A DNA stretch of 64,000 bases from Acidimicrobiia bacterium (GTDB lineage: Bacteria; Actinomycetota; Acidimicrobiia; Spongiisociales; ZC4RG35), in the NCBI GenBank assembly GCA_028285585.1, contig JANQOU010000012.1:62001-126000 (forward strand), in the 5' to 3' direction. Below the pieces are notes generated by a model. It saw nothing but the letters and a program-made list of their open reading frames with translations, was not told where the DNA came from and did not search any database. Of the stretch, positions 55,580 through 60,227 are shown piece after piece (positions within the stretch are counted from its first letter, which is position 1; each line of letters begins with the position of its first letter). Made by a program: the position numbers and the translations under genes.

Positions 55580-57136
55580 ATGGCGCTGAGAATCACTTAC
55601 GCAACGATGTCCGCAGACAACGAGGAGCTGAACAGCGCCTACGAGAAGTCGGTCCTCGATGTGCAAGCCAGGCTCGGTCAGAACCATGGTGTGATCGTCA
55701 ACGGGGAATCGAGAACCGACCGCGACTTCTTCGAAGAAGTCTCACCCATAGACAAAGGCATCCTGATCGGCCGTTACGCCCAAGCCACCACGGACGACAT
55801 CGACGATGCGGTGGCTGCCGCCGAGGCCTTCCAACCGGAATGGGAGGCATGGGGATGGGAGAAGCGGCGGGACTTGATGCTCACCGCGGCCGACATCATG
55901 GACGCCGAGACGTTCGACCTGGCAGCCATGTTGTCGTACGAAGTCGGCAAGAACCGCCTCGAGGCTCTGGGAGACGTCGCCGAGACGGTGGAGTTCCTCC
56001 GCTACTACGCAAACCAGATCACCGAGCACGATGGGTTCGTGACGCCGCTCAGCTCGCTGAGCCCCGATGAGACCAATGTGTCGGTGCTCCGCCCCCACGG
56101 CGTGTGGGCCGTGATCTCACCGTTCAACTTCCCGCTGGCACTGGCTGGTGGGCCTTCGACGGGCGCACTGATCACCGGCAACACGGTTGTGCTGAAGCCG
56201 TCGAACACAGGTGCGTTGATGGCTCTCGAGTTTCACAGGATCATGAGCGAGGCGGGATTGCCCCCCGGCGCCCTGCATGTGGTGACCGGTGGCGACGAAG
56301 CCGGTGACTACCTGGCCCACCACGACGATGTCGACGGGTTGACCTTCACCGGCTCTTACCCCGTTGGGATGTATCTCTACAGGACAGTCAATGAGAAGCG
56401 GCCGAAGCCGGTTTCGGCCGAGATGGGCGGGAAGAACCCGGTGGTCATAACCGGGAGCGCCGACCTCGACCAGGCCGTGGAGGGTGTGGTCCGCGGGGCG
56501 TTTGGGTTGAGCGGACAGAAATGCTCGGCGACATCACGGGTATATGTCGAAGAGCCCGTCTACGACGAGTTCGTGGACAAGCTCGTGGCTCGAACCGCTG
56601 AGATCGAGGTCGGGGACCCAACCGAGAACGGGATCTTCGTCGGGCCGGTCATAGACGACGCAGCCATCGAGAGATTCGAAGGTGCCGTTGCCGAGGTGAG
56701 AGACAGCGGTGGCGAAGTTCTAGCTGGCGGGGGCGTCATCGACAGAGGTGACATGGCCAAGGGCAACTATGTCGAACCGACCGTCGTCCACGCTCCGCTC
56801 GACTCATGGGTCTGGTCCACCGAGTTGTTCGTGCCTTTTGTCGCGGTGACCGCGGTGTCGGACATGGAAGAGGGCTTGGCGTTGTCCAACGACACAGAGT
56901 TCGGCCTCACCGCCGGGCTCTTCAGTGCAGATGACGACGAGATCGACAAGTGGTTCGCCGGGATCCAGGCCGGAACCACCTATGTCAACCGTGCCGCCGG
57001 GGCCACCACGGGCGCATGGCCGGACATCCAGTCGTTTGGAGGATGGAAGGGATCAGGCACCTCCGGGGCCGGAGGGGGAGGCCCCTGGTATCTGCGTCAG
57101 TTCCTTCGCGAGCAGTCCCGGACCCTGATCAGGTGA
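55580..57136 (+). CDS. 1-Pyrroline-5-carboxylate dehydrogenase
   Basis: 518 residues. Aldehyde dehydrogenase of the P5CDH group, converting glutamate semialdehyde to glutamate. Catalytic Cys315 in LSGQKCSATSRVYVEE; Glu in VSAEMGGKNPVVI; substrate and NAD blocks SPFNFPLALAGGPSTGAL and GLTFTGSYPVGMYLYR. It completes proline breakdown with the proline dehydrogenase 20 kb away. AGAGG lies about six bases before the ATG, so it is one of the few leadered genes; the 150-base gap to the histidine kinase holds nothing else recognised. Confidence 0.9.
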   Translation: MALRITYATMSADNEELNSAYEKSVLDVQARLGQNHGVIVNGESRTDRDFFEEVSPIDKGILIGRYAQATTDDIDDAVAAAEAFQPEWEAWGWEKRRDLMLTAADIMDAETFDLAAMLSYEVGKNRLEALGDVAETVEFLRYYANQITEHDGFVTPLSSLSPDETNVSVLRPHGVWAVISPFNFPLALAGGPSTGALITGNTVVLKPSNTGALMALEFHRIMSEAGLPPGALHVVTGGDEAGDYLAHHDDVDGLTFTGSYPVGMYLYRTVNEKRPKPVSAEMGGKNPVVITGSADLDQAVEGVVRGAFGLSGQKCSATSRVYVEEPVYDEFVDKLVARTAEIEVGDPTENGIFVGPVIDDAAIERFEGAVAEVRDSGGEVLAGGGVIDRGDMAKGNYVEPTVVHAPLDSWVWSTELFVPFVAVTAVSDMEEGLALSNDTEFGLTAGLFSADDDEIDKWFAGIQAGTTYVNRAAGATTGAWPDIQSFGGWKGSGTSGAGGGGPWYLRQFLREQSRTLIR

Positions 57137-58199
57137 CAGTGATCCGGAGACCATCCGGATCTTGAAGCTCGAGTCCTTCGGCGACAGCCGACGAGCTGAC
57201 ACCCACGCTTGCCAAGTGGTCCTTCCAGCGTTGCAAGTCGTCGACGTGGAACGCCAGGGCATCCGGCCTGGCGCTTCCACCCTCGACCAGCTCGATCTCC
57301 TGGCCAGGAGCGGCTTGGACGACGGCTGCCACGACACCTTCTGAAGGTGAGCGGAGCTGCTCGAAGCCAAGGACGTCGCGATAGAACGTCAGCGAAGCTT
57401 CGAGTGAGCTGACTGCCACCGAGGTTCGGGTGGCGCTGACCCCGCCAGGAGCGCGGCGAGGACCGCCGCCGGCGAGCACTTCTTTGGCCTCCGTGATGGT
57501 GAACCGCCCGGCAGTGACTTCCCGACCCACGACCATGCCGGCAATCGTCCGCCCAGATGCCTCGAGCTGGCTGATCAACCTGAGGTCGTCGAGGTTGCGG
57601 ACTCCGCCAGAAGCGATCACAGGGTCTTCGACCGCAGCCAGAGCCTCGGCCAGAATCCCGAGATTGGGAGCTTCCTCCAGAGCGTCACGACCGGCTTCCG
57701 CCACCAAGAAGGCCACGGCGCCGGCCGATGACATCTCGATGAGCACTTCCTCGAGGAAGCGACCGCTGTTCTGGGTCCACCCCTGAGTGGCTATCTCCTC
57801 GTTGGCCCTCACGTCGAGCGACACGACGATCTTCTCCGGGTACTCCCGGCACAGATCCCAAACCATGATCTGGTTCTCGATAGCGGCAGTCCCCATGACC
57901 ATGCGCCAGGCGCCCATGTTCATGATGCGCTCGGCTTCACCCTCGGAGCGGACGCCGCCGGCGACCTGAACCGGCACCTCCGCCTCTTCCACGAGCCGCG
58001 AGATCAGGTCGCGGTTGCGGTAGTCGCGGTATGCGGCGGCGTCGAGATCGACGACGTGCAGGTAGTCGACCCCCTGCTTGACCCAGTTGTGGGCGCGGCC
58101 GATCGGGTCGTTGTCGAGAGCGATCGCTTCGTCCAGACGCCCTTTGGGGAGACGCACCGAGAGACCACCGAGGATGTTGATCCGTGCGTACAGGTCCAT
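57129..58199 (-). CDS. HisA-like barrel fused to a VOC (glyoxalase-like) domain
   Basis: 356 residues. Residues 1-243 follow HisA/PriA: LGGLSVRLPKGR, YLHVVDLDAAAYRD, VPVQVAGGVRSEGEAERIM, VVSLDVRANEEIATQGW, VIASGGVRNLDDLRLI and GMVVGREVTAG. The catalytic Asp8 of HisA is Asn8 (RINILGG). The TDISRDGT loop that holds the second catalytic Asp and phosphate contacts reads VAEAGRDAL. The second Asp-type residue (SLDVR) is kept. Residues about 250-356 form a VOC domain (TSVAVSSLEASLTFYRDVLG). Histidine synthesis is doubtful; another ketose-amine or unrelated isomerase role is possible. TAGGGT lies six bases before the ATG. Confidence 0.8.
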   Translation of the reverse strand: MDLYARINILGGLSVRLPKGRLDEAIALDNDPIGRAHNWVKQGVDYLHVVDLDAAAYRDYRNRDLISRLVEEAEVPVQVAGGVRSEGEAERIMNMGAWRMVMGTAAIENQIMVWDLCREYPEKIVVSLDVRANEEIATQGWTQNSGRFLEEVLIEMSSAGAVAFLVAEAGRDALEEAPNLGILAEALAAVEDPVIASGGVRNLDDLRLISQLEASGRTIAGMVVGREVTAGRFTITEAKEVLAGGGPRRAPGGVSATRTSVAVSSLEASLTFYRDVLGFEQLRSPSEGVVAAVVQAAPGQEIELVEGGSARPDALAFHVDDLQRWKDHLASVGVSSSAVAEGLELQDPDGLRITVT

Positions 58200-58255: not shown

Positions 58256-58363
58256 AACCTCAGGTAATAACGCCCGTATCTGGTAGCTATGGCCTCAAGT
58301 TGCCAGTGGGCTCTTTGAACGCGAGGCCATAGGGCCCGTATTCGGGCGTTATTACCTGAGGTT
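58256..58363. repeat. 108-base inverted repeat with 41-base arms
   Basis: Arms 58256-58296 and 58323-58363 are inverted copies: the outer 21 bases (AACCTCAGGTAATAACGCCCG) are identical, the inner 20 differ at seven positions. A 26-base loop separates them. The right arm covers the last codons and stop (TAA TAA) of the endonuclease-IV-like/LigD-like gene. It may be a strong terminator, or a small terminal-inverted-repeat element that inserted at the gene end. No clear target-site duplication is seen. Confidence 0.8.
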
Positions 58364-60163
58364 CGCGATACCGAGGGCGTCTTCGGCTTGGTCGAGGGTT
58401 TGGCCGCCGGCGAGGACCGGAGCGAAGAGGTCGCCGTAACGCCGGAGGCGATCCCAGATGTTGGCGATGGTGATGTCTCCGTTCTGGAGCTCCCCCACCT
58501 CCTCCCAGGTCAGAGGTGTCGCAACGGGGGCACCAGGGAGAGGCCGTACCGAGTAGGCGGAAGCAACCGTCTGGCCTGACGCGTTGCGATTGTGGTCGAC
58601 GAAGACCTTGCCCTTCCGCTTGGGCTTGTCCCATTCCATGGTGATGTCGTCGGGGTTGGCCGCCGCCAAGTACTCGCCCAGCTCGCCGACGAACCTCCGC
58701 ACCCTCGGGTAGCCATGGACCGGCTCGAGGGGAACGTAGACATGCAAGCCCTTGGATCCGGAGAGCTTGGGATACCCCACCAGGCCGACCTGATCGAGGG
58801 CAAGCCTTAGCAACTGAGCCCCGGCAACCAACTGCTCCCACGATGACCCCTCCGCCGGATCGAAGTCGAAGATGGCGTACGAGGGCATGTCGGGCGTTTC
58901 CGCCGTCGAGTGGAACGGGTGCATCTCGACACAGGCTATGTTGGCGAACCACATCAGCGACTCTGTGCTGTCGGCGACCAGGAAGTCGATCTCACCTCCC
59001 ATCGAGTCCGAGACCACCGGCACGATCTTCATCCAATCCGGCTGATGGCCCGGTGCCCTCTTCTCGTAGAAACTCGGCCCCCCTATGCCGTCGGGATAGC
59101 GGGACATCGAGATCGGCCTGCCGGCAAGATGCGGCAGCAGCACCGGTGCGATCGACGTGTAGTACTGGATCAAATCCCCTTTTGTGTAGGAGTCGCCGGG
59201 GAAGAACACCTTGTCGATGTTGGAGAACGTGATCGGCCGGTCCACTTGTTGCGGCACGAACCGTTCACCGTCTTTGACCACGCTCACCTTCGAGGGGAAG
59301 TCGATGCCTGCCGACGCCAAGGGGCGGCCCGGTGAGCCCACGGTGGTCATGTGATCACGCACCTCGTCCCAGATCAGACCGTGACTCTTCATGTCACGCG
59401 CCTCGGATATGAGCACCATGGAGAGGCCCATCTCCTGAACTGCTTCTATCAGCGGCCCGACCCGAAGAGTCCCCTCGCCGTATGGAACGTGACGGATCTC
59501 ACCGGACGCCCCGAACTCGTTGTCGGAGAACTGGACTTGGAGCGGCTGGATCATCCATCCCGGGAAACTCTCCCGAACGAACGCCAGGACCGAGGCGAAC
59601 GCCTCTTTGGTGACAAGCTGGCCGCCGGTCATGGCGTGCACATGTGCCCAGTCGACCACCGGCCTCACAAAGCTGTATTCAGAGGCGAGCTGGGCGATGT
59701 CACCGAGACTCCCGAAAGAGCTCTTGTTGCCAGCCGTCTCGAGACCGAGACCGACGCCGAGGTCGACCACTTTGGGAGCCACGTAGTCGAGACGTGATCG
59801 GATCCGGTCCATGAGGGCCGAAGGCTCCTCTTCGTAGGCCGACCCGAAGTGGGCGACGATCACCGGCGCGCCAAGCGCTTTGCCCAGCTTCATGGTGTGC
59901 TCCATGGCGGCAAGCGACTGCTTGCCTCGGTCTTCGTCGGGGATGGTCAGTCCGGCGAAGTAGGGGGCATGAACCGAAAGCCGCAAGTCTCGCTCAGCTG
60001 CGAGCAGGCCGAACTGCTCGCAATGTTTCTCCTTCCAAGGAAACCCTTTGGTGAAGGGAAGCTCCAGGGCGCGGTGCCCCTGCTCGACGAGGCCGTCGAG
60101 GAAGGCGACAGCGTCGGCGCCTTCTGGAGGAAGCTCGCTGATCCCGAATCGGATCGTGGTCAT
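58352..60163 (-). CDS. Endonuclease IV-like barrel fused to a LigD-type polymerase domain
   Basis: 603 residues. Residues 1-275 resemble endonuclease IV / xylose-isomerase-type TIM barrels: SVHAPYFAGLTIPD (H65), VIVAHFGSAYEE (H105), GLGLETAGNKSSFGSL (E142), VDWAHVHAMTGG (D171, H174), H225 and E254. Seven of nine zinc-ligand positions look kept; the HLND His and the DRH Asp appear replaced. Residues 310-603 are a full LigD polymerase (AEP/primase) domain: NIDKVFFP, SRYPDGIGGPSFYEKRAP, metal Asp433 and Asp435 in IFDFDPAEGS, SGSKGLHVYVPLE, Asp523 in VDHNRN, YSVRPLPGAPVATPLTW. No ligase or nuclease domain of LigD is attached. TAGCCT lies seven bases before the ATG. Confidence 0.9.
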   Translation of the reverse strand: MTTIRFGISELPPEGADAVAFLDGLVEQGHRALELPFTKGFPWKEKHCEQFGLLAAERDLRLSVHAPYFAGLTIPDEDRGKQSLAAMEHTMKLGKALGAPVIVAHFGSAYEEEPSALMDRIRSRLDYVAPKVVDLGVGLGLETAGNKSSFGSLGDIAQLASEYSFVRPVVDWAHVHAMTGGQLVTKEAFASVLAFVRESFPGWMIQPLQVQFSDNEFGASGEIRHVPYGEGTLRVGPLIEAVQEMGLSMVLISEARDMKSHGLIWDEVRDHMTTVGSPGRPLASAGIDFPSKVSVVKDGERFVPQQVDRPITFSNIDKVFFPGDSYTKGDLIQYYTSIAPVLLPHLAGRPISMSRYPDGIGGPSFYEKRAPGHQPDWMKIVPVVSDSMGGEIDFLVADSTESLMWFANIACVEMHPFHSTAETPDMPSYAIFDFDPAEGSSWEQLVAGAQLLRLALDQVGLVGYPKLSGSKGLHVYVPLEPVHGYPRVRRFVGELGEYLAAANPDDITMEWDKPKRKGKVFVDHNRNASGQTVASAYSVRPLPGAPVATPLTWEEVGELQNGDITIANIWDRLRRYGDLFAPVLAGGQTLDQAEDALGIANLR

Positions 60164-60227
60164 GGCCGACAGGCTATTGGCCAAGTGTTCGATTGACCCG
60201 ACCGGCGTTACGCTTTCGGTCTCAACC

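Follow-up and report, generated by a model that had tools for sequence, protein, structure and literature searches.

The gene described here, located in the analysed stretch of 64,000 nucleotides of Acidimicrobiia DNA (the window), belongs to a family of HisA paralogues that is distributed across one order of the Acidimicrobiia, is more strongly constrained than canonical HisA and persists independently of histidine biosynthesis. In the following, this order-restricted clade is called the N8 family. The assignment of the family as a neofunctionalised HisA paralogue is well supported. With a probability of roughly 0.6, we regard the protein as a phosphoribosyl-type isomerase scaffold that acts outside histidine and tryptophan synthesis and is probably enzymatic, whereby its ligand and its reaction are those which we infer below.

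HisA and PriA are a textbook case of enzyme evolution by duplication and promiscuity. In a Pfam search with the window protein, residues 7-221 of the barrel matched PF00977 with an E of 3.4e-49 and the C-terminal residues 259-353 matched PF00903 (Glyoxalase) with an E of 7.9e-7, and no match to the TrpF family PF00697 was obtained. The best NCBIfam family was HisA (TIGR00007) with 170.2 bits compared to a cut-off of 228.95, and the bifunctional PriA model TIGR01919 gave 145.1 bits compared to 306.45; the window protein lies under every curated HisA/PriA cut-off. The positions of the gene, its domains and its decisive codons are compiled in Table 1.

Table 1. Features of the N8 gene and of the gene upstream of it (positions in the window)
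Feature	Position	Strand	Basis
Complete gene for a HisA/PriA-like barrel with a VOC domain (356 aa)	57129..58199	-	ORF, translation, Pfam
(beta-alpha)8 barrel, aa 1-245, conserved core of the N8 family	57465..58199	-	PF00977, AF2 model
Asn8 codon, site of the general-base Asp of HisA/PriA	58176..58178	-	sequence, homologue counts
Asp129 codon (PriA Asp130), invariant	57813..57815	-	81/81 homologues
Arg171-Asp172 codons; Asp172 retains the second catalytic Asp of HisA/PriA (Asp175/176)	57684..57689	-	homologue counts
VOC domain (glyoxalase/bleomycin-resistance fold; aa 250-356) lacking metal ligands	57132..57452	-	PF00903, fold match
Upstream gene encoding a xylose-isomerase-like TIM barrel fused to LigD Prim-Pol	58352..60184	-	Pfam

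Active-site residues and distribution of the N8 family

The initial annotation had described an Asn in place of the catalytic Asp of HisA at residue 8 of an otherwise largely kept HisA-like barrel. Both statements are borne out, and the pocket is mostly intact. The codon of residue 8 reads GTT on the plus strand and thus AAC in the gene. Since, of 81 distinct homologues of the N8 family, 79 carried Asn at this position, 2 carried His and none Asp, the Asn is not a product of chance. Canonical HisA proteins of the same order showed Asp in 21 of 21 cases (16 of the HisA type and 5 of the HisA-IE type). His8 instead of Asn8 was observed in three members of the N8 family (L112, L120 and L175 377-1102), the one in L175 (genome G300) being strongly diverged.

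Among the 81 N8 homologues, Arg16, Arg84, Thr104, Asp129 and Arg171 were invariant. Residue 172, which aligns with Asp175/176 of PriA/HisA, was Asp in 75 of them, including the window protein, and Asn in the other 6. Residue 141 was Trp in 75 homologues, with Phe in the remaining 6. When aligned to solved PriA chains, the window protein showed DAL in place of the DGT loop. The reported loss of this loop therefore applies to the Gly-Thr, which is changed to Ala-Leu, but not to the Asp itself. The glycines of the phosphate loops are kept (GGVR 81-84, GT 103-104, GG 198-199 and VGR 224-226), and the last of these loops bears the mark of the family, GREVTxGRF, with Glu227 and Thr229 compared to Ala and Tyr in the canonical proteins. 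All pocket residues with roles in PMC13055916 are kept in the window protein except Thr170, the site of which is mostly occupied by Ala, Ser or Thr in the N8 family.

Of the 95 genomes sampled from the order, 76 contained N8 orthologues (295 to 446 bits), usually as a single copy, while other members of the class reached at most 222 bits in the same search, which corresponds to the level of canonical HisA. Outside the order, no N8 match was obtained in a phylum sample of 396 genomes at a threshold of E 1e-75. The phylogenetic tree places the N8 proteins in a single group on a long stem (SH-aLRT of 99), separate from canonical HisA, HisA-IE and HisF. This tree is the result of a fast calculation, and the program cautions that long branches may attract each other; the placement of the exact sister of the N8 clade is therefore provisional.

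A comparison of the ten genomes containing both genes (45 pairs) showed a mean pairwise identity of 64.6% for N8 and 54.6% for canonical HisA, with N8 being more conserved in 44 of the 45 genome pairs. Because of this higher conservation the N8 gene is not decaying, and a decaying pseudogene was ruled out by it together with the lack of stops in the barrel among the matches listed. Literature searches yielded no description of the N8 family.

The N8 gene and the histidine pathway

The gene is a paralogue, since a canonical hisA was found in its own genome. The genome search gave four PF00977 matches, the fourth of them weak and partial. Two lie adjacent to each other on contig C4 inside a full his operon, which comprises a histidinol-phosphate-aminotransferase-like/HAD fusion, hisB, hisH, hisF, a hisA-hisI-hisE tri-fusion and hisD. 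The tri-fusion has 418 aa, begins with MIVPSIDISGG and keeps the catalytic Asp. It sits directly behind hisF (L035 8388-9644, G000:C4), and its HisA part is divergent, with Glu-Gly for Asp-Gly in the loop-6 motif and Gln for Arg16. HisA parts of this type also occur in G006, G020, G026 and G036. The trpF gene (PF00697) of the genome is a separate gene on contig C6. The same contig comprises a weak second HisG-like match of 48 bits (G000:C6:39556-39948) within a 728-codon open frame. A HisG paralogue as partner of the N8 protein was rejected, since HisG is missing from most N8-carrying genomes without the his pathway.

The INDEPENDENCE from histidine can be seen in the 43 good-quality relatives, 11 of which are missing hisB but still keep the N8 gene (G012, G014, G016, G017, G025, G027, G039, G040, G047, G053 and G054, each at least 90% complete). 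In all 11 genomes the N8 protein was the sole strong PF00977 match, and therefore canonical hisA and hisF are gone as well; hisG was missing in 10 of them and present in G016. The genomes are drafts in which single absences may be gaps, so that the weight lies in the concordance of four genes in eleven genomes, one of which (G053) is a single-contig assembly. Furthermore, hisA and hisF without the N8 gene were found in G036, G043, G056, G225, G259, G266 and G270, and some genomes of family f8 contain neither, so that all four combinations occur. Many near-complete genomes of the order (e.g. G012, G040 and G053) are without hisA, hisF, hisB and hisG. A repeated loss of histidine biosynthesis across the order is likely.

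Since the N8 gene is kept where histidine biosynthesis is gone, its job lies outside this pathway, and in species without hisG it cannot depend on ProFAR. The earlier suggestion of a repurposed isomerase scaffold is supported by the second, canonical hisA, the clade of its own and the persistence after the loss of histidine biosynthesis. A second ProFAR or PRA isomerase in histidine or tryptophan synthesis, i.e. a subfunctionalised PriA of the SubHisA/SubTrpF type, would agree with the PriA-type barrel and pocket, and such paralogues are described for other Actinomycetota (PMC13055916). However, the general-base Asp is missing in 81 of 81 members, the N8 gene is kept without hisA, hisF, hisB and hisG and is absent from genomes having them, and a separate trpF was found in 53 of 60 relatives, which makes this explanation highly improbable. 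A role in primary metabolism as ProFAR or PRA isomerase was rejected because of the distribution among the genomes and the loss of the base. Homology alone would give the N8 gene the name hisA, and such a call would hide histidine auxotrophy in N8 genomes.

The VOC tail

The C-terminal VOC domain seen in the initial annotation is a real fold, but not a fixed part of the family. PF00903 was matched by 31 of 31 homologous VOC tails, and the tail folded alone gave an AF2 pLDDT of 91.5. Its closest fold was that of TnmS3, a ligand-binding VOC protein (Z of 14.9, rmsd of 2.2, 107 aligned), with TnmS1 also being among the nearest ligand-binding VOC proteins. Within the N8 family, some members of family f1 and those of f6 carry the VOC tail. 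Other members of f1 and f5 showed a short, helix-rich-looking tail, and several further members have no tail. Compared to the nearest orthologue, the identity was 84% for the barrel and 65% for the VOC part. As a faster-evolving accessory, the VOC domain does not form the core of the function.

The metal ligands of E. coli GlxI (His5, Glu56, His74 and Glu122) were compared with the 31 tails. At the positions of His5, His74 and Glu122, none of the 31 tails showed the corresponding His, His and Glu, nor were they found one column to either side, while the position of Glu56 was Glu in 24 of 31. The initial annotation had considered a metal-dependent second activity, for which conserved VOC metal ligands in the orthologues would be expected. 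The genuine VOC fold and the frequent Glu at the position of Glu56 would agree with such an enzyme; the three other ligand positions, without the ligand residue in every tail, and the patchy domain, which is missing from many orthologues, speak so strongly against it that we consider it extremely improbable and rejected it on the missing ligands.

The VOC domain was added in a lineage-specific manner and has no metal site; it most likely serves as a ligand-binding or oligomerisation module. It resembles VOC ligand-binding proteins (TnmS3/TnmS1, bleomycin-binding protein) in its fold and in having no complete metal site. In contrast to these, it is the C-terminal domain of a barrel protein, and no resistance context was seen.

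Proposed function and gene neighbourhood

For the full-length window protein, AF2 gave a model with a mean pLDDT of 90.5, based on 48 aligned rows from the window and fetched loci. The top PDB match (Foldseek, VIA-align) was 2y88, the D11N variant of M. tuberculosis PriA with PRFAR, which showed a Z of 34.1, an rmsd of 1.6 and 33% identity for 239 residues. Wild-type PriA (3zs4) ties with it at a Z of 34.0, and structures of Salmonella HisA D7N with ProFAR were high among the matches. The natural Asn8 is the same substitution as in these engineered, ligand-bound D11N and D7N variants. As best structural matches, they fit a loss of catalysis as well as a change of catalysis.

Based on these data, a single origin of the N8 gene at or near the base of one Acidimicrobiia order is proposed. 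As the sequence shows, the protein has kept the fold, the phosphate loops and most residues of the ProFAR pocket (Arg16, Arg84, Thr104, Asp129, Trp141 and the general-acid Asp172), has Asn in place of the general base and has acquired the invariant GREVTxGRF in its last phosphate loop. It may still bind a phosphorylated ligand of the ribosyl or aminoaldose type. Since all pocket residues except Thr170 are kept, binding of a phosphorylated ribosyl-type ligand is likely, whereas an Asp-driven Amadori rearrangement is unlikely because of the lost general base. Turnover would most likely need Asp172 and/or Asp129 instead of an N-terminal carboxylate base and would take place in some housekeeping pathway. 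It is tentatively put forward, with slightly less than an even chance, that the protein is an order-wide enzyme with a reaction new to the HisA/HisF/TrpF superfamily, which has Asn or His where the general base would be and converts a phosphorylated sugar derivative as part of a pathway not yet described.

A changed reaction is favoured over a dead binder because Asp129 is strictly and Asp172 near-strictly retained. As a dead binder, the catalytically inactive protein would bind a phosphoribosyl metabolite as sensor, carrier or assembly scaffold, with the VOC or helical tails relaying or completing the function. The ligand-bound PriA D11N and HisA D7N structures among the matches, a pocket retained although the base is lost, tails that vary around a fixed core and a VOC tail close to TnmS3 and TnmS1 are all consistent with such a role, and it keeps some plausibility because six members comprise Asn172. 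This Asn in 6 of 81 members also weakens the assumption of an Asp172-dependent catalysis in all of them. A dead binder, however, would not require Asp129 and Arg171 to be fixed in 81 of 81 and Asp172 in 75 of 81 members, its ligand cannot be ProFAR or PRFAR where hisG is absent, and no regulator or partner gene is conserved alongside the N8 gene. Altogether, the binder is considered rather unlikely, and an enzymatic function of the N8 protein is preferred.

Compared with known systems, the N8 proteins resemble PriA/HisA (PF00977, TIGR00007, TIGR01919; 2y88/3zs4) in the fold and the phosphate loops, with Arg16/19, Arg84/85, Thr104/105, Asp129/130, Trp141/145 and Asp172/175 as residues common to N8 and PriA. 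They differ from PriA in Asn8 for Asp11, DAL for DGT and the GREVTxGRF motif, and contrary to PriA/HisA the N8 gene lies outside the his and trp operons and persists without the histidine pathway. AdeK, SubHisA and SubTrpF are likewise duplicated PriA-type barrels with a shifted function in Actinomycetota; Asp11 and Asp175 are labelled catalytic in the alignments, and AdeK retains HisA activity (PMC13055916). The same family survey from 2026 describes priA duplications as rare (6.2% of genomes) and reports relaxed selection in adeK (PMC13055916). In contrast to these paralogues, the N8 proteins are without Asp11, order-wide and usually single-copy, and show a conservation above that of HisA instead of relaxed selection. 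The N8 family is thus the opposite of adeK, namely an old paralogue in which a catalytic residue was lost, whose constraint exceeds that of canonical HisA and which has survived the loss of its parent pathway. For this large uncultured lineage, it points to a metabolic step that is conserved but undescribed, or to a protein with a phosphoribosyl ligand.

The gene encoding the TIM barrel and the LigD Prim-Pol adjoins the N8 gene in 26 of 86 distinct loci, all of them from the window's own family, and in 20 of the 21 measured cases a gap of 9-152 bp separated both genes. Its LigD primase-polymerase domain comes without a ligase, and matches to the gene were obtained in 54 of 60 relatives, and in a few of these the match covered only the Prim-Pol part. 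As it was also found in genomes without the N8 gene, this neighbour is probably outside the N8 function. Among the 86 distinct loci, no order-wide conserved neighbour was detected. Since the other neighbours differ by family, no firm function can be derived from the context, and an assignment from gene neighbours was dismissed. A near-perfect palindrome of about 105 bp (58258-58362 of the window) is located between the N8 gene and the adjoining upstream gene and extends into the end of the latter. In the genome, it was matched 60 times when both strands are counted, with many full-length copies and several contigs involved, and it represents a dispersed repeat (MITE/REP-like).
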